DNA of 40,118 nt from a virus. Where the stretch lies: positions 1-40,118 of IMG/VR virus record IMGVR_UViG_3300020421_000059, one strand, 5' to 3'. The notes under the pieces were generated by a model. That model ran no database searches and had not been told where the DNA came from. It saw only the letters and a list, made by a program, of their open reading frames with translations. Shown here piece after piece: positions 6,556 through 34,704 of this stretch. The position numbers and the translations under genes were made by a program. The stretch's first letter is position 1. The number at the start of each line of letters is the position of its first letter.

Positions 6556-7995
6556 ATGGCATACGAAGGAGGTTTTCAAATAGGAAAAGAAATAGGGGCA
6601 ATCAACATCCCTAGCATGGATAAACAGTTAATGTTTTATAGTCAGCTTAATGCGTCAAAATTAGCGGCTGAAAAAAAAGCAGAAGCTGATAAGAAAAAGA
6701 ATATCGATCAAGTTATTGAGAGTCAAAGAAAAGAAAATGCTGAATGGATTTATGAAGATAAAATAGATGATGTCGGAATGGAGCAAGCTGATCAAGCTGC
6801 CGCTAAATTCCAACAAGAGCTTAAAAATGCTTATGAAAGAGATACATACCTGTATTCGGTTGATGCTTTAAGTCAAGCAGATTATACTAGAAATAATACA
6901 AAAAGAAAAGCGTCTGTAAAAGAAGTGCAATCTTTGTATTCACAAGCAGGAACTTTTATTAAAGAAAAAAACGATCTTGTTGCTAACGGAAAAGACAGCT
7001 ATGTTAATGATCTTAAGGCTGAGGTTATGGGAGACCTTATGAATCACATTTCCTATAAAAACAATACCGATGGCAGAACTGAATTGTCAACCATCAACAC
7101 AAGAGGACAGCGCATAAATATGTTTTCTTCAACATTAAAAGATTTAAGCACAACTGAAGTTGGGCTAAAACCAGACACTATTGTAAATAAGTTAGTTACA
7201 GAGTCTGGGTTTATAAAGTACGATTCTGTTTCTGGAAAATATAGATATACGGATTATGCCACTGGTAAAATGTCTGGTTCTAATAAAGAAAGAACAGGTA
7301 GACTTCTAGATGCTGCATTTGAAGGATATACAGATACTCAGTATATAGATTTAGCTAATAGATTAGGTCTAGTTAGCGATGATAAAGAAGAAGCTGAAAA
7401 AGAAGGATTGATTCATGTAGATGCTACTAATTTTCTTAGAAAATCACCTGAAGAAATCCAAGAGATAAAAAAAAGAGCTAGAGATGGAGTTTCACAATAT
7501 TTCACTGATAGGCTTGAGTTGAAGCAAGATAGAGGAATAGCTCCACCAAAACCTAGTCTAGATGTAAAAACACCTAAATATGATAGGTCTTATTATAATA
7601 AAGAGAGTGCTGGAGGGGTGGGAATAGATACTGATTTTAACGAATATACATTTAAAGATCCAAAACCAGTAAAGGGTTTGAGCTTGTCTGGATTTAAAAT
7701 ACCTGTTCCTAGAGATAATGATCAAGTTTTACAAGAGCCATCTGTCGTTGCTTATAGAGATTTAGGTAATGGTAAACATTTTGTTAAAATAAGTAGTAAA
7801 GTTGGCAAGTATCCAACCTATACGAACCCACAAGGAAAAAAAGTTCCAAACACGTCGGCACCTATGATCGAAGAAGAAAAATTTACTTATGTACCCTTGC
7901 CCACAAGAACAGAAGTGAATCAAATTAGAAGCGTTTATGGTATACCTATTTTGACCGATAAAGAACAAGTAAATCAAACTGGAATATTAGATTAA
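6556..7995 (+). CDS. Putative internal virion protein
   Basis: 479 residues, hydrophilic and mostly helical. A charged coiled-coil (about residues 30-110, AEKKAEADKKKNIDQ) is followed by a mixed region and a beta-rich C-terminus. No catalytic motif or membrane segment was recognised. It sits between the small and the giant ejection-like proteins, with one base before the next gene. The role is inferred from position. Confidence 0.55.
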   Translation: MAYEGGFQIGKEIGAINIPSMDKQLMFYSQLNASKLAAEKKAEADKKKNIDQVIESQRKENAEWIYEDKIDDVGMEQADQAAAKFQQELKNAYERDTYLYSVDALSQADYTRNNTKRKASVKEVQSLYSQAGTFIKEKNDLVANGKDSYVNDLKAEVMGDLMNHISYKNNTDGRTELSTINTRGQRINMFSSTLKDLSTTEVGLKPDTIVNKLVTESGFIKYDSVSGKYRYTDYATGKMSGSNKERTGRLLDAAFEGYTDTQYIDLANRLGLVSDDKEEAEKEGLIHVDATNFLRKSPEEIQEIKKRARDGVSQYFTDRLELKQDRGIAPPKPSLDVKTPKYDRSYYNKESAGGVGIDTDFNEYTFKDPKPVKGLSLSGFKIPVPRDNDQVLQEPSVVAYRDLGNGKHFVKISSKVGKYPTYTNPQGKKVPNTSAPMIEEEKFTYVPLPTRTEVNQIRSVYGIPILTDKEQVNQTGILD

Positions 7996-21690: not shown

Positions 21691-22167
21691 TTATTTATTT
21701 AATATATGGTGTAGAGTTCCTTTACTTGAAATGCTAAATTTTTCCATAGTTTTTGCATAGGAACCATGTTCCTCATGATATTTTCTAACCTCATTTTTAT
21801 CATATTTTGTGATAAAACTTGATGCGTGTTTAGCTCTAGAAACCCTTACGTGTTCTGGCTGATCCATGTAGTTGTCGCTGTAGGTGCCTATACTTATATT
21901 GTCCTTTGAGTTGTTATGTTTATCGCCATCTAAGTGCCTTACAACAATACCATCTTCATATATTTTTTCACCGTATTTTTGATAAGCCTGTAGTCTGTGT
22001 GAGGAGACATTAAGGTTTTTATTTTCAGCACTCCTAATTTTAAAAGTAGGGTATCCGTTTGTTTGTGTAAAACCAACCGTTTCGCCTTTTAACCCAATTA
22101 CACCTCCTTCATCAGTTATTCTATAACCCTTCTCAAAAGCTTTCTTTTCGTTTTTATTATATCTCAT
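21691..22167 (-). CDS. HNH homing-type endonuclease
   Basis: 158 residues. The core has SSHRLQAYQKYG, VVRHLDGDKHNN and an NISIGTYSDNYMDQ region, the usual HNH homing endonuclease layout. A C-terminal helix-turn-helix-like segment (YAKTMEKFSISSKGTLHHIL) probably gives DNA specificity. It sits between two recombination genes, as expected for an inserted mobile gene. No intron was identified. Confidence 0.85.
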   Translation of the reverse strand: MRYNKNEKKAFEKGYRITDEGGVIGLKGETVGFTQTNGYPTFKIRSAENKNLNVSSHRLQAYQKYGEKIYEDGIVVRHLDGDKHNNSKDNISIGTYSDNYMDQPEHVRVSRAKHASSFITKYDKNEVRKYHEEHGSYAKTMEKFSISSKGTLHHILNK

Positions 22168-23499: not shown

Positions 23500-23667
23500 T
23501 TAAATTATTTTGATCCTCATTGATGATAGTGAATCTTTGGTTTTTGACCACCAAACATTAAACTTATAAGTCTCGTTCTTGTCTAATACTTTGATACGGA
23601 CTTTTCCGTCATTTCCTTTTACAGAAACAACGGATATGCCCGTGTCAAGATTAACAACGTTAATCAT
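23500..23667 (-). CDS. 55-aa beta-rich protein
   Basis: The frame reads as alternating strands (GISVVSVKGNDGKVRIKVL, YKFNVWWSK). Its ATG overlaps the stop of the preceding gene by 8 bases (ATGATTAA). Coupling and composition support it. No family recognised. Confidence 0.55.
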   Translation of the reverse strand: MINVVNLDTGISVVSVKGNDGKVRIKVLDKNETYKFNVWWSKTKDSLSSMRIKII

Positions 23668-23989
23668 TATTTAGGTTTTGTAAAACCATATCAATGATTA
23701 ATTTGTTTGAGAAGTGCCTTAATTTGTATTCAGCACCATCATATTTTGCAACAATCTCTACTCTTTTTGTTTGATTGTTGTTGTTTTCAACTTTGACCAC
23801 ATTTCTTTTGAGTGTATTAATAATGGTTGACTCCCTAAGAGGAGCTCCATATTTCTTTTCAAATTCTCTAGAAATTTTTTCTGTATCATTAGTTCCAAGA
23901 TTCTTAATAAAATGTATCTTGTCTTGTGAAAGCCTAGTGTGGTAGTACTTGACATTCCTTTTTGTTTTCATTTTACGTTTTGTTTTCAT
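23660..23989 (-). CDS. Small basic, HTH-like protein
   Basis: 109 residues. A Lys/Arg-rich start (MKTKRKMKTKRNVKYYH) is followed by DKIHFIKNLGTNDTEKISRE and LRESTIINTLKRN, a pattern compatible with a helix-turn-helix. It could be a DNA-binding regulator. First gene after a short non-coding leader with a candidate -7 element at 24075. Confidence 0.55.
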   Translation of the reverse strand: MKTKRKMKTKRNVKYYHTRLSQDKIHFIKNLGTNDTEKISREFEKKYGAPLRESTIINTLKRNVVKVENNNNQTKRVEIVAKYDGAEYKLRHFSNKLIIDMVLQNLNND

Positions 23990-24101
23990 TATGTTAAATT
24001 TAATTTTGCCTACTCTGTAAGGTTTTCGGCTTCCCCTGTTCTATTTGCAAGTTAATAACTATGTTTATAATTTCCAAATTTATTTTGTAAATGCCTGGTT
24101 A
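23990..24101 (-). other. Non-coding leader of a leftward sub-operon
   Basis: About 110 bases without a supported gene, containing the candidate promoter element at 24075-24082 and, next to the gene at 23989, an AAATTAAATTTAA-like sequence. Likely the 5' leader of the 23989 transcript. Confidence 0.4.
24075..24082 (-). promoter_or_regulatory. Candidate leftward -7 element (TAAATTTG)
   Basis: Exact TAnnTTTG on the minus strand in a gene-free gap, about 85 bases upstream of the gene starting at 23989. Confidence 0.35.
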
Positions 24102-26312: not shown

Positions 26313-26549
26313 TTATTTAATTTTAATTTTACTCATTACTTCAGTTATTACATCCTCAATGAAGTCTTCTTTATGTTCTTCAACTTCATCTCTCCACTGT
26401 GGAGGAATATCAAAGTATTCCTCAACGTGTTCTCTTACTTTTTCTTCTATCATTTCCATCAAGTCTTTCTTAATTTCGTAGGCAGTATCTGATACTGAGT
26501 TGTCCCATACATCTACGAATGGGTTTGTTTCATAAGGTGGATATCTCAT
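26313..26549 (-). CDS. 78-aa acidic helical protein
   Basis: Starts MRYPPYETNPFVDVWDNSV, then long Glu/Lys helices (EEKVREHVEEYFDIPPQWRD, EDFIEDVITEVMSKIK). Strongly acidic. Function unknown; DNA mimicry is possible but unsupported. Confidence 0.55.
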   Translation of the reverse strand: MRYPPYETNPFVDVWDNSVSDTAYEIKKDLMEMIEEKVREHVEEYFDIPPQWRDEVEEHKEDFIEDVITEVMSKIKIK

Positions 26550-29548: not shown

Positions 29549-29814
29549 TTTATATTTTCATTTATTTGATTAGTAAATTGATCTTGGTATTTTTCAATTC
29601 TCAGTAAGCACTCTCTGAGTCTATCAATCCAAGCGAAGTGGTTTTCTATTTCATCAGTCAAAAGAATTGCAGTTTTATATTCTTTACCGATTCTTTTTCC
29701 GTCATCATACACTTGACCTTTAAGTTGCTCCTCTAGTTTTTGTAAAAGGCTTTTGGCATTCCCTATGTTTGGGTCTACCTTATCGTGAAAGTTTTGTAAA
29801 TCTCTCTTATTCAT
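29545..29814 (-). CDS. Helical protein
   Basis: 89 residues, helical throughout (AKSLLQKLEEQLKGQVYDDG, FAWIDRLRECLLRIEKYQDQ). Overlaps its neighbours by 4 and 8 bases. Unknown. Confidence 0.55.
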   Translation of the reverse strand: MNKRDLQNFHDKVDPNIGNAKSLLQKLEEQLKGQVYDDGKRIGKEYKTAILLTDEIENHFAWIDRLRECLLRIEKYQDQFTNQINENIK

Positions 29815-29971
29815 ATCCTAATTCTAATTTTAAGTTTTGGTGTTTGATTGGATTGTATATAGGACGAACGCTTTTAATTGTTATCCTCTTTCTTTTTTTA
29901 GCGTGGGGTCTCTCTGTCTGGCGTGTATAAAATTTCATAAAGTCAGACCATTTCGATTCTTGATTTAGCAT
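29807..29971 (-). CDS. 54-aa very basic protein
   Basis: Start taken at the ATG at 29971, not 42 bases upstream, because it has the AAATCAAATCAATTATG leader and gives a natural N-terminus (MLNQESKWSDFMKFYTRQTE). Rich in Lys/Arg (HAKKRKRITIKSVRP). First gene of the large leftward operon; possible nucleic-acid binder. Confidence 0.5.
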   Translation of the reverse strand: MLNQESKWSDFMKFYTRQTERPHAKKRKRITIKSVRPIYNPIKHQNLKLELGYE

Positions 29972-30205
29972 AATTGATTTGATTTTAATTAATAAAAAAA
30001 GGGAGACAGTCATACCAATTATGAAAAAAGGTAGACCATCCCCCCAGAAAAAAGGGTTAGCTCTCTTGAATAATATTCGCTACGTATCCAAGAGATTTTG
30101 GGTTTGTTTGTTTTTGTATATGTATTCTGAAATTGACCAAGTTTCGCTCTAAGGTGTTTAAACCAAATAGATTCGCTTTACAAGATGCCCATAGTTGGCT
30201 ATCTG

Positions 30206-30228
30206 TTCGCCTCCAAATTAAAGGCGAA
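30206..30228. other. 7-bp perfect hairpin
   Basis: TTCGCCT and AGGCGAA separated by 9 bases, GC-rich for this genome. No T-run follows, so it is not a simple terminator. Confidence 0.5.
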
Positions 30229-30525
30229 GCATACCTATTACCCCCGAGTATGCAAGGGGATTTGCTTGTCATTATCGCAAATATTCACGCTTGAAACTGT
30301 ACAGACTCCACTCATCATAGGGTTACATTCTTGTTTTACTAGCAGATAGACAAATACATTTTGCCATACATAGTCTGCCACTAGAATATAATTATCCTAT
30401 TCAGCTGTCGCTGTCTTGGAGAATATAGATACTTTCTAACGATTTCTCGCACTCCATCACTTTCAATATGGTTTATCGGTTTGGCTTCACTCGGTTCAAG
30501 AAAGGTATTGCACCCCGTAATTTTG

Positions 30526-30533
30526 TATTTTTG
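30526..30533 (+). promoter_or_regulatory. Candidate rightward -7 element (TATTTTTG)
   Basis: Exact TAnnTTTG; the predicted start falls on the second ATTGCACCCC copy near 30540. A terminator-like hairpin lies 130 bases downstream. Confidence 0.35.
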
Positions 30534-30550
30534 GTGAGCATTGCACCCCC

Positions 30551-30646
30551 TAACAAAATTAAACTTTGTTACTACTTAGAACAATAAAAAAATTGTTCAA
30601 TTTGCCGATAAATAAAATTGTTCGAATAGGGGGAATTGCACCCCCT
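30551..30646 (+). other. Cluster of three stem-loops
   Basis: Perfect stems: TAACAAA/TTTGTTA (30551-30571), GAACAAT/ATTGTTC (30579-30598) and AGGGGG/CCCCCT (30628-30646). A second ATTGTTC copy at 30617-30623 could pair with the same GAACAAT, allowing alternative folds. Possible structured RNA. Confidence 0.5.
30554..30561 (-). promoter_or_regulatory. Candidate leftward -7 element (TAATTTTG)
   Basis: Exact TAnnTTTG on the minus strand. Predicted start near 30547, which would give the leftward operon a leader of about 575 bases. Confidence 0.3.
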
Positions 30647-30667
30647 TAAATGCTCTAGCAATTCGAT

Positions 30668-30690
30668 AAGTAGTTTTTAGCCTACTTTTT
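30668..30690 (+). terminator. Intrinsic terminator-like hairpin, rightward
   Basis: AAGTAG (30668-30673) pairs with CTACTT (30682-30687), and the right arm runs straight into a string of T. The T-run is on the right, so it suits a rightward transcript although no rightward gene precedes it. It covers the stop codon of the leftward gene. Confidence 0.5.
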
Positions 30691-31045
30691 TTAATTGGTT
30701 TTGATTTTGCCTTTTAACTTTGGTTTGTGTTTTTTCTACTTTGTTAAATTTTCGCAAAAGCATTAAACCCCCATGCAATGAAAAGTAAATCTTTCCTATT
30801 GGTGCTAATTTCTGAAAGTCTTTAAAGCTTGGAAATTTAGATTTTCCTAAAATTCCTATCTTTTCTCTTTCTGTCAATTCGTTTAAACGTTTGAAAACTT
30901 TTGAAAGACTTTTGTCTTCTATTTTGCTTTGTGCGTTTATTAGTCGCACCCAATCAAAAGAGGATTTATCTTTTTTAGCTTTTAATGTTTGAATTGTTAA
31001 ATTAGCTTTTGTCGCCCATTTTGGGCTAGAATTTGTGTTTTTCAT
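30677..31045 (-). CDS. Small basic protein of unknown function
   Basis: 122 residues from the ATG at 31045, chosen because an ATG 48 bases upstream gives an unlikely hydrophobic extension. Lys-rich helices (TKANLTIQTLKAKKDKSS, SKVFKRLNELTEREKIGILG) and a Lys/Gln-rich end. It stands alone in the regulatory region and could be an early regulator, but no DNA-binding motif is clear. Confidence 0.55.
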   Translation of the reverse strand: MKNTNSSPKWATKANLTIQTLKAKKDKSSFDWVRLINAQSKIEDKSLSKVFKRLNELTEREKIGILGKSKFPSFKDFQKLAPIGKIYFSLHGGLMLLRKFNKVEKTQTKVKRQNQNQLKKVG

Positions 31046-31731: not shown

Positions 31732-31899
31732 ATGTTATTATTTACATTTATATTTCCAAACGCCTTAATGACGGGATTTGAATATTTCGAAGAAACAGAA
31801 GATCTTCAATTCAATGAGTTTAATTTATATTTGTTGTTCTTTGCTGTGTCTTACAGATGGAGGAATAACGGAGAAAAAATTAAAAATCTAGAGGTTTGA
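31732..31899 (+). CDS. 55-aa protein coupled to the radical SAM gene
   Basis: Hydrophobic start (MLLFTFIFPNALMTGF), an acidic middle (YFEETEDLQFNEF), then YLLFFAVSYRWRNNGEK. An in-frame second ATG at 31768 is an alternative start. Its TGA overlaps the TTG start of the radical SAM enzyme (TTGA), so the two are probably translated together. No Cys and no RiPP precursor signature; it may be a small partner. Not recognised. Confidence 0.55.
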   Translation: MLLFTFIFPNALMTGFEYFEETEDLQFNEFNLYLLFFAVSYRWRNNGEKIKNLEV

Positions 31900-32816
31900 C
31901 AAAAATTAGGTATGCCCAGATTGACCCTAATGGATTATGTAACGCAGGGTGTTGGTTTTGTCCAGTAGCATACGAGGGTAATCCAAAGGAGTCTATAAAT
32001 CAAATGTCCCCAGAGGACTTTAGAAATATAATTCAGCAAATCCATGAAAACAAAGGTGGGATTGTTTCTCCAGAGTTTAATGGAATATATAGCTCTCATT
32101 ACAACGAAGCTTTATTGTATAGGTATTTTGAGGAAATGCTAGAGACTCTGAGAGAGTTTAAGCTTGGCATGATGGTTTTGACCAACGGAACGCCTCTCAC
32201 ACCAGATAAAGTAGATATAATAAACAAATACCAGGATGTGGTTTGGGGAGTCTGTGTTAACGCCCCCGTGTGGTCAGATGCTGAATTGTTCGCTAAAAGA
32301 ACGAACATGAAGCCTAACTTATTTCAAAAGTTAAAAATAAATGTTTCATATGCCTACACAAACCTTAAAAACAAAAACCTACTTTCAGTTCAAATAAATG
32401 GACACGATAGAGAGTCTGGTGCGATCAAGGGACCCAAGTTTCCAGATATATCAGATACAGAACTAGACGAACAAGTAGCAGTAGCTAAGTCGATGTTCCC
32501 AAATGCAAACGTATTCAAACAACCTCATCTTATAGATCGAGTTGGATTGATTGACGAATATATAAGTTCCTCTGCGTTTGTGCATCCTGACAAGAAAGTA
32601 GTTGGGTGTATGGGCAAAAGAGATACCGAGTGGCTTCATATTAACGCAAACTCTGAGCTTTTCTTGTGCTGCAACGATTATCACATGGAGCATAAATTTG
32701 CAAATCTTAAAGATTTTTCACTAAAAGAGGTGTGGATGAATCAAAAACACCAAGAAGTTTTACAAAAAGCATGGAATTCTATATGTAAATCTTGCACATC
32801 TGCCATTTATGAGTAA
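31896..32816 (+). CDS. Radical SAM protein with SPASM-like C-terminus, TTG start
   Basis: 306 residues. LCNAGCWFC places Cys15, Cys19 and Cys22 in the C-x3-C-x2-C cluster of radical SAM enzymes. The C-terminal 70 residues have CMGKRDTEWLHINANSELF followed by CCNDY, then CKSC near the end, as in SPASM/twitch auxiliary-cluster domains. No ATG lies between the upstream stop and the first cluster Cys, so TTG at 31896 is the only sensible start. SPASM enzymes usually modify peptides or proteins; the substrate here is unknown. Oxygen sensitivity would be expected. The chaperonin gene follows under its own -7 element. Confidence 0.85.
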   Translation: MTKIRYAQIDPNGLCNAGCWFCPVAYEGNPKESINQMSPEDFRNIIQQIHENKGGIVSPEFNGIYSSHYNEALLYRYFEEMLETLREFKLGMMVLTNGTPLTPDKVDIINKYQDVVWGVCVNAPVWSDAELFAKRTNMKPNLFQKLKINVSYAYTNLKNKNLLSVQINGHDRESGAIKGPKFPDISDTELDEQVAVAKSMFPNANVFKQPHLIDRVGLIDEYISSSAFVHPDKKVVGCMGKRDTEWLHINANSELFLCCNDYHMEHKFANLKDFSLKEVWMNQKHQEVLQKAWNSICKSCTSAIYE

Positions 32817-32825
32817 AAAATGTTC

Positions 32826-32833
32826 TATATTTG
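32826..32833 (+). promoter_or_regulatory. Bacteroidota -7 promoter element (TATATTTG)
   Basis: Exact TAnnTTTG in the 44-base gap before groEL, leaving a leader of about 20 bases. Suggests groEL-groES can be expressed apart from the radical SAM gene. Confidence 0.5.
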
Positions 32834-32860
32834 TAGATATAAATTAAATTTAATTTACAA

Positions 32861-34450
32861 ATGATAGAAAAAAACATTGACTTCAATGAGAATGCTAGAC
32901 ACAGCCTAAAAAAAGGAATAGATACTTTAGCAGATGCTGTAAAACAAACACTAGGAGCAGCAGGTAATACAGTTATTTTAGAGGATGAAATAGGTAGACC
33001 CCACGTCACTAAGGATGGTGTTACAGTTGCCAAAAGTATAAACCTGTCAGACCCCGTAGAACACTTAGGAGCTACAGTGGTGAAACAAGCATCTATTAAG
33101 ACGGCTGATGAAGCAGGAGACGGAACAACAACTTCAATTGTTCTAACTCAAGAATTAGTCAATCGTTCATTTGAATACATAGAGTCAAAGAACGTAAACG
33201 TAACAAAACTTAGAAACTCCCTAGAGTCCTTATCAAATGACGTTATTGAAGAGATTAAGAAAAGATCTAGAGAGGTTACAGAAAAAAATTTAAAAAGCGT
33301 AGCAACTATTTCAGCAAACAACGACTCTGAGCTTGGAGAGATTATAGCTGATGCGTATCTTAAAGTTGGCGTAGAGGGTGTGGTGACTATAGAAGAATCT
33401 ATGACAAAAGATACACACACAGAAATATTAGAGGGGACAAGGATTAAAAGAGGATTTCATAGTCCATACATGATTACAGATGTAGAGAAGAAACAAGCTA
33501 TTCTTGAGGATCCTTTTATTTTAATATCAGATAAAAAAATAAACACTTGGGAAGATATAGAGCCGTGCTGTCAGTTTGCAATGCAAAATAAAAAACCAAT
33601 ACTTATTGTTTCTGAAATAGAGGATACTGTAATGCAACTTCTTAATGTAAACAAGACAAGAGGAGTCATTAAAGTTAATGTTGTAAACCCAGAGGGTGTC
33701 GGGTTAAATAGATTTGAGCTTTTAGAGGACCTAGCTATTATGACGGGGGCTATTGTTGTTTCTGATGAGACTGGTAATGACTTTTCTGCTGTAGATGAAA
33801 GCTTCTTAGGAACTGCAAAAAAGACTGTATCAACAGAAAAAGAAACCGTACTCACTTTAAATTCTGAAAAAACAGCTGACGCTGTTAAAGAAAGAGCTGA
33901 GATGGTTAGAAATATTTTAAAGAAAAAAGATGATTCTTCAAATGAGTGGCATTATAAGGATCGTCTTTCTAGGCTTTCGGGGGGGATTGCTGCTATACAT
34001 GTAGGAGCACTGACTGAGGTAGAAATGAAAGAGAAGAAGGATAGAGTTGAGGATGCTATATTTGCGACACGTGCTGCTCTTGAAGAGGGAATTGTTGCAG
34101 GAGGAGGAGTAGCATTGTATAATGCAGCTATGGAAATGCATAACAGATACTTTAAAGAAAGTGATGATGAAATGAAGGCTGCTTGTGCTATTTTATCAGC
34201 AGCATTAATCTCCCCTATAAAGCACATACTAGAAAACGCTTCAATGAGTTACGATTCATTTGTAGAGAAAATAGATACCGTAAGAAGAAGAAACTATGGG
34301 TTTGATGTAAAAAGAAAGAAGTTTGGTAACATGTTTTCTATGGGAATTATAGATCCATTCAAGGTAACCAAGAACGCACTGCAAAACGCAATATCGGTTT
34401 CGATAACAATTTTAACTACAAACTGTACTATATCAAATAAAAGAGCATGA
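32861..34450 (+). CDS. groEL: Phage GroEL chaperonin
   Basis: 529 residues. Key sites fall at E. coli numbering: KDGVTVAK with Asp52, GDGTTT with Asp87, and RVEDAIFATRAALEEG with Asp398, the ATP-hydrolysis residue. LGAAGNTVIL and VAGGGVALY are also typical. The C-terminus ends TNCTISNKRA and lacks the GGM repeat tail. The apical domain is diverged. It probably folds phage virion proteins with the GroES encoded next. In bacteria groES normally comes first; here the order is reversed and the genes overlap by 4 bases. Confidence 0.95.
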   Translation: MIEKNIDFNENARHSLKKGIDTLADAVKQTLGAAGNTVILEDEIGRPHVTKDGVTVAKSINLSDPVEHLGATVVKQASIKTADEAGDGTTTSIVLTQELVNRSFEYIESKNVNVTKLRNSLESLSNDVIEEIKKRSREVTEKNLKSVATISANNDSELGEIIADAYLKVGVEGVVTIEESMTKDTHTEILEGTRIKRGFHSPYMITDVEKKQAILEDPFILISDKKINTWEDIEPCCQFAMQNKKPILIVSEIEDTVMQLLNVNKTRGVIKVNVVNPEGVGLNRFELLEDLAIMTGAIVVSDETGNDFSAVDESFLGTAKKTVSTEKETVLTLNSEKTADAVKERAEMVRNILKKKDDSSNEWHYKDRLSRLSGGIAAIHVGALTEVEMKEKKDRVEDAIFATRAALEEGIVAGGGVALYNAAMEMHNRYFKESDDEMKAACAILSAALISPIKHILENASMSYDSFVEKIDTVRRRNYGFDVKRKKFGNMFSMGIIDPFKVTKNALQNAISVSITILTTNCTISNKRA

Positions 34451-34704
34451 AAGCAATAGGATCATTTGTGGTTGTTAGAAAAGAAAACGAAGAGGTTAAG
34501 AGTAAGGGAGGTTTTATAATTACAGAATTTTCTGACAAAGCCATACGGTATAAATTAGCTGAGGTTGTTTCGGCTGGTGAAAATGTAAAGGGTCTGTCAG
34601 AGGGCGATAAAATTTATTATGACTCTGCTGCTGGCTCTGAAATAAGAATTAACGGAGAAAAACTTACGGTTATACCTGATAGACAGATAGTTGTAGTTCT
34701 GTGA
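34447..34704 (+). CDS. groES: Phage GroES co-chaperonin
   Basis: 85 residues against about 97 in E. coli. Start IGSFVVVRKE, mobile-loop region EEVKSKGGFIITE (GGIVLT-like), then RYKLAEVVSAGENVKGLSEG and a final VIPDRQIVVVL. The segment that forms the roof hairpin is much shorter than in E. coli GroES. It caps the phage GroEL ring or the host's. ATGA overlap with groEL. Confidence 0.9.
   Translation: MKAIGSFVVVRKENEEVKSKGGFIITEFSDKAIRYKLAEVVSAGENVKGLSEGDKIYYDSAAGSEIRINGEKLTVIPDRQIVVVL

Follow-up and report, generated by a model that had tools for sequence, protein, structure and literature searches.

A coding gap between two leftward genes

The window analysed here, a virus record of 40,118 bases from IMG/VR, carries leftward genes from ~13.5 to 31 kb, among them primase/helicase, a DnaD-like loader and recombination genes, and rightward genes from 31.9 kb that include a radical SAM protein, GroEL and GroES. 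Because of its gene content, rather than any use of expression data, we take the leftward block to be early genes. As a side observation, a radical SAM/SPASM protein, GroEL and GroES are encoded consecutively at 31896-34704, here in a phage.

A coding scan leaves 29815-30676 as a gap, which agrees with the sequence-only reading that the locus codes for nothing evident, except that the T-tail at its right edge belongs to a leftward gene. That gene encodes a Lys-rich protein of 122 aa with matches in neither Pfam nor PHROG, and its predicted structure (pLDDT 49) is too poor for a fold search. The gene on the other side of the gap may use an alternative later start near 29971. An open reading frame at 30057-30272 (minus strand, 71 aa) is probably no gene: the coding scan rejects it and it overlaps the 3′ motif described below.

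The best-supported object at the locus is a leftward RNA running from ~30676 to 30056, with the Lys-rich protein gene on one side and the following early gene on the other. The evidence supports an RNA that is noncoding, folded and leftward, with helices kept by compensatory changes in related phages; its structure and sense are well supported, and the function that we propose for it is tentative. The features are as follows, in leftward order.

30677..31045, minus strand: gene for the Lys-rich 122-aa protein, just upstream (in the leftward sense) of the RNA
30056..30676, minus strand: predicted structured noncoding RNA, ends approximate, drawn from the coding gap, homology to L171/L206 and L175, and fold z
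30629..30645, minus strand: 5′ hairpin GGGGG UGCAAUU CCCCC, which includes the third copy of the 10-mer; all 17 nt are the same in L171 and L206
30605..30612, minus strand: P2 5′ strand, TTTATCGG in leftward sense, pairing with 30472-30479
30579..30598, minus strand: P3 hairpin GAACAAT..ATTGTTC; L171/L206 have other arms at this position
30570..30578, minus strand: conserved TAAGTAGTA in leftward sense, of which AAGTAGTA is invariant in 4/4 core sequences
30518..30561, minus strand: P4, an outer helix (30518-30526 with 30553-30561) enclosing a GGTG..CACC hairpin (30533-30547); branched equivalent in relatives
30472..30479, minus strand: P2 3′ strand, CCGATAAA in leftward sense; L233 has both bases of two pairs changed, and L206 has one G-U
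30418..30455, minus strand: possible P5, GGAG..CTCC, matched to an L171/L206 hairpin by position only
30056..30093, minus strand: 3′ motif with 9-bp stem, loop CGUAGCGAAUAU and tail GAGCUAAC; 47 bits with model R1, the window being in the model
29807..30013, minus strand: next leftward gene, 68 aa, starting 42 nt past the 3′ motif

Repeats, conserved helices and strand

The sequence-only reading had drawn attention to three exact copies of ATTGCACCCC, and these are indeed present at 30507-30516, 30540-30549 and 30635-30644, with no other exact copy in the window. The triple is beyond chance; none of 60 dinucleotide shuffles of the whole window gave three copies of a similarly complex 10-mer inside 160 bases. 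The proposed stems are likewise there: TAATTTTGT/ACAAAATTA pairs 30518-30526 with 30553-30561, TAACAAA/TTTGTTA lies around 30551-30571, and GAACAAT/ATTGTTC joins 30579-30585 to 30592-30598, with the alternative ATTGTTC partner at 30617-30623. Nothing that we found requires the suggested fold switching. A further stem, GGGGG AATTGCA CCCCC at 30629-30645, had been merely implied by the heading of that reading.

Homologues of the core occur in three other phage sequences, so that only four distinct core sequences are available (window, L171, L206 and L233); the contigs L220 and L221 are near-identical and add no diversity. L171 and L206 match window positions 30570-31025 at ~70%, the Lys-rich gene included, and have in common with it CAATATGGTTTATCGGTTTGGCTT, TACTACTTA, AATTTGCCGATAAATA and GGGGGAATTGCACCCCC, the first of these words differing at one base in L206. 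L233 came from the 3′ motif search. Homologues of the window's Lys-rich protein adjoin the RNA in L206 (66% identity), L171 (66%) and L233 (48%). L171 and L206 are 96.6% identical over the RNA and 89.3% for the neighbouring gene, and the left part of the gap in the window, like the 3′ end of L171, has a match in L175.

Read leftward, the core comprises the 5′ hairpin and then the long-range helix P2, inside which lie P3, the conserved stretch AAGTAGTA and P4. Next come GAAGCCAAACCG, for which L206 alone of the four core sequences has CAAGCC, and a further hairpin. P2 changes from UAUCGG/CCGAUA to CUUCGG/CCGAAG among the homologues and pairs in 93.8% of cells, and 37 of 500 shuffles of these four sequences reach its counts, so that we regard its covariation as suggestive. 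P3 is significant on its own in the window only, its counterpart in L233 not being so alone. P4, whose inner hairpin holds the second 10-mer copy, corresponds in L171 and L233 to one outer helix with two small hairpins (P ~0.03 each), whereas in the window it has one hairpin and an energy not significant against shuffles. A hairpin reading GGGGG(agatga)CCCCC in L171 and GAAGG(agatga)CCTTC in L206 carries two changes on both sides. The G5/C5 stem of the 5′ hairpin is kept in L175 and L154, with different 7-nt loops, and gives no covariation evidence because its pairs never vary. A helix enclosing the 5′ hairpin was discarded as not distinguishable from chance, strands of other lineages pairing equally well. 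Compensatory base changes in relatives had been put forward as one test of a structured noncoding RNA; they are found in P2 and in the L171/L206 hairpin and, together with the coding gap, bear the proposal out.

Against dinucleotide shuffles, the leftward fold of the whole element was matched in 0 of 40 cases in each of five loci and in 2 of 40 in L250. In the window, z is -2.2 leftward and -0.9 rightward, and the leftward value (-2.0 to -5.2) is the lower in all six loci; in L171, L175 and L154 the opposite strand, too, outdoes its shuffles, so folding alone does not fix the strand. We assign the leftward strand because of the G-U pairs and the flanking genes: the 3′ motif has 11 G-U wobble cells in this sense, all of which the opposite strand would show as A-C mismatches, and P2 in L206 adds one more. 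The element is thus larger than the ~150-base RNA first proposed, at ~600 nt, and its end lies ~450 bases to the left of that region.

The core has a narrow distribution. Model R2, which matches the window at 30461-30616 (itself part of the model), found no members beyond its building sequences and their duplicates. Those phages that are nearest in their helicase and radical SAM genes (G002 among them) have no match at this place, so the core is not essential to the lineage. Searches with the whole region gave just chance matches of ~20-40 bases, mostly in coding sequence, among phage and plasmid records; searches of bacterial genomes by protein and by DNA pattern gave no homologues. The gap of L053 at the corresponding place folds no better than shuffles. 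Among candidate relatives, L222 was dropped as a protein relative, as it lies within a longer coding frame. L049-L051, which turned up through their spaced 10-mers, resemble other coding sequence, and we counted them as unrelated. Closely spaced TTGCACCCC occurs at L049:6474-6582 and L051:1055-1150, which are other viral contigs and there probably coding.

A 38-nt hairpin at the 3′ end

The 3′ motif was first seen as a conserved hairpin before the next gene in an alignment of L171 and L175. It spans 38 nt, with a 9-bp stem, a YGUAGAGAAUAU loop and a CUAAU tail. Scanning viral sequences by loop and tail, with the stem left free, returned 21 contigs, of which eight had perfect stems (9/9), one had 8/9 and the rest reached ≤0.75; contigs with paired stems were kept, so the set is partly chosen by stem, and the gap between the groups is wide. 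Across 13 sequences (the window and 12 other sites), 99.1% of stem cells pair and all nine pairs have changed on both sides; the covariation score is 0.851, as against 0.282 when shuffled and ≤0.216 when slid. The loop UAG can pair with the tail CUA in a pseudoknot-like manner, and these letters hardly vary among the 13 sequences.

Twelve of the 22 records searched whole have the motif, in single copy except for two in that of L234, and in most members it lies 14-42 nt ahead of the next start. A Lys-rich protein of 122-155 aa precedes it in the window, L171, L206, L175, L167, L232, L233 and L250, and the record of L154 encodes at that position a protein homologous to that of the window (E 1.9e-29). 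The proteins of L175, L167, L232 and L250 have no profile match to that of the window and are thus similar in kind, their relatedness not being established. The RNA between the Lys-rich gene and the motif ranges from 11 to 681 nt, and L167 and L232 have both gene and motif with almost no RNA between them. Rfam 15 has no family at its gathering cut-off in 30056-30676 (at E ≤5, scores fall far below the cut-offs), nor does Rfam hold the 3′ motif; RNA family and motif are both new to Rfam 15.

Related phages carry something else in a similar place. In L161, the noncoding sequence close to where the early genes begin has a hammerhead at its end, which reaches the Rfam gathering score; the hammerhead-like cores at this place in L142/L053 and L214 were identified from sequence alone. 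The noncoding stretches of these phages match each other weakly (L161 versus L053, E 2e-4), and the 3′ motif was not found in the genomes of L161, L142 or L214. Conversely, we found no hammerhead (a CUGANGA..GAAAC core with three stems) in the window, where the sole core match falls inside a gene at 22115 and Rfam reports none. Hammerheads that process transcripts are on record in phages (Perreault et al. 2011, PMC3088659). Given the hammerhead or hammerhead-like ribozymes at a similar point in three related phages, we tentatively infer that the 3′ motif marks an RNA-processing boundary; the common slot suggests a common processing role.

Two observations concern the hammerhead phages themselves. 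A hairpin with a near-identical tag recurs before early genes, as CGTCATATACTAATC eight times in L142, CGTCTTATATTAATC five times in L161 and TCACATTACTAAT twice in L214. The first tag in L142/L139, L161 and L214 is the 3′ strand of the hammerhead or hammerhead-like core, which is why we propose that one such ribozyme might cleave all tagged sites in trans. In addition, a hammerhead-like CTGATGAGTCCGAAAGGACGAAAC stands at L142:4831, L139:3176 and L140:78, before a homologue of the window gene 26313-26549, and is absent from the window.

Interpretation and known systems

We give a probability of roughly 0.6 to the reading, inferred parts included, that the repeat locus is the 5′ part of a ~600-nt leftward structured early RNA that is processed at the 3′ motif, released and active with the Lys-rich protein. 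The RNA would be transcribed leftward along with the early genes, flanked by the Lys-rich gene and the next early gene; its pseudoknot-like 38-nt hairpin would serve as the processing boundary at the 3′ end, and cleavage would release it from the early transcript. It could then perhaps act together with the Lys-rich protein; in phages that have both, the RNA and the gene for this protein lie side by side. The copies of the 10-mer would be hairpin strands of this RNA and not DNA sites.

Other readings start from the DNA or from the opposite strand. Repressor operators or replication iterons built from ATTGCACCCC and the GAACAAT/ATTGTTC palindrome would suit the operator-like symmetry of the latter, the spacings of 33 and 95, which are near whole helical turns, and the tandem TTGCACCCC in L049 and L051. 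Yet L171 and L206 have a single 10-mer and lack the ATTGTTC pair, and neither is present in the L233 core. The words are lost while pairing is kept, which disfavours both operators and any function through the 10-mers as such; G-U pairs and compensatory changes are expected from RNA, the helicase and loader genes are ~10 kb away, and we consider DNA sites quite unlikely. Very unlikely, too, is the proposal of the sequence-only reading, a rightward RNA of ~150 nt for which a -7 element would be the promoter and a T-tailed hairpin the terminator. Hairpins form on both strands, and TANNTTTG does match at 30518 and 30526 on the plus strand, but the window has 39 such matches on that strand and 29 on the other, these are not kept in relatives, and TATTTTTG becomes TATTTGCA there. 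The T-tailed hairpin (AAGTAG..CTACTT followed by T7, ~30668-30692) is also present, but its stem has just two G-C pairs, a terminator scan does not report it, and no rightward intrinsic terminator with a G+C-rich stem and U-run was found; its right arm and T-run are codons for the Lys-Lys end of the leftward gene (...QLKKVG*). The G-U cells, finally, favour the leftward strand. That the locus is a functionless conserved remnant or a chance structure of AT-rich DNA would fit those single helices that are not significant, and is hardly credible given the compensatory changes, the covariation of the 3′ motif and the z-scores in six loci.

More serious, though clearly a minority possibility, is a cis-acting early-operon leader that stays in the transcript and controls elongation, by nut/put-like antitermination, or downstream translation. 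The nut/put antitermination RNAs lie early in operons next to a gene for a small basic protein, as here; our RNA is early in the leftward operon, the adjoining Lys-rich protein could be an N-like factor, and the 3′ motif precedes the next start closely in most members. The gap of L154 contains GTTCTTTGACA, which we take to be boxA-like from general knowledge of boxA, and L175 has a variant; antitermination therefore stays alive for these two. However, the gaps of the window, L171, L206 and L233 have no boxA-like sequence: in that of the window neither TTC[TA]TTG[AT] nor CTCTTTGA occurs, and a Bacteroidota-like boxA word with ≤3 mismatches matches nine times over the window and never inside the RNA. 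The RNA is also much longer than nut/put, and among members its length varies from almost none to ~680 nt. Release of a separate RNA seems to us likelier than a purely cis-acting leader, mainly because of the ribozyme analogy. More boldly, the 3′ motif might be a small RNA-processing element of a new kind, conceivably a self-cleaving ribozyme, and the RNA that it frees a new class in phages, acting early in infection together with the Lys-rich protein; we regard this version of the release reading as speculative and improbable.

Several known RNAs invite comparison. Type III toxin-antitoxin RNAs have tandem repeats upstream of a toxin gene, an arrangement not found here: the neighbouring Lys-rich gene is upstream of the RNA, the three words are unevenly spaced and there is no Pfam match (as a toxin, the downstream gene was compared with Pfam and PHROGs only). 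For tmRNA, with its tRNA-like domain and tag frame, ARAGORN and Rfam report none in the window, and the T-loop-like 5′ hairpin is a resemblance only; L234 does carry a permuted tmRNA (6849-7189, RF04321, 64 bits), flanked by its two copies of the 3′ motif. DUF805b RNA (RF02914) shares with the 3′ motif a hairpin form, a 12-nt loop and a position ahead of genes in these phages, but it has a 4-bp stem and other conserved letters; it occurs in the window at 24007-24039 (minus strand), before gene 23660-23989, and also in L142, L161 and L154.

ROOL, GOLLD and OLE, RNAs of bacteria and phages (PMC12286853), are large, structured and noncoding with little-known functions, like the window RNA, which differs from them in having no Rfam match, another sequence and core fold, and an adjoining Lys-rich gene. 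The present analysis adds a family of phage RNAs and a motif of 38 nt, with definite structural predictions. Phage hammerheads are likewise intergenic RNA elements between genes in long phage transcripts (PMC3088659) and hold a similar place in related phages, whereas the 3′ motif of the window has another fold; if it does serve in processing, at least two unrelated kinds of RNA element would fill the same slot in phages.
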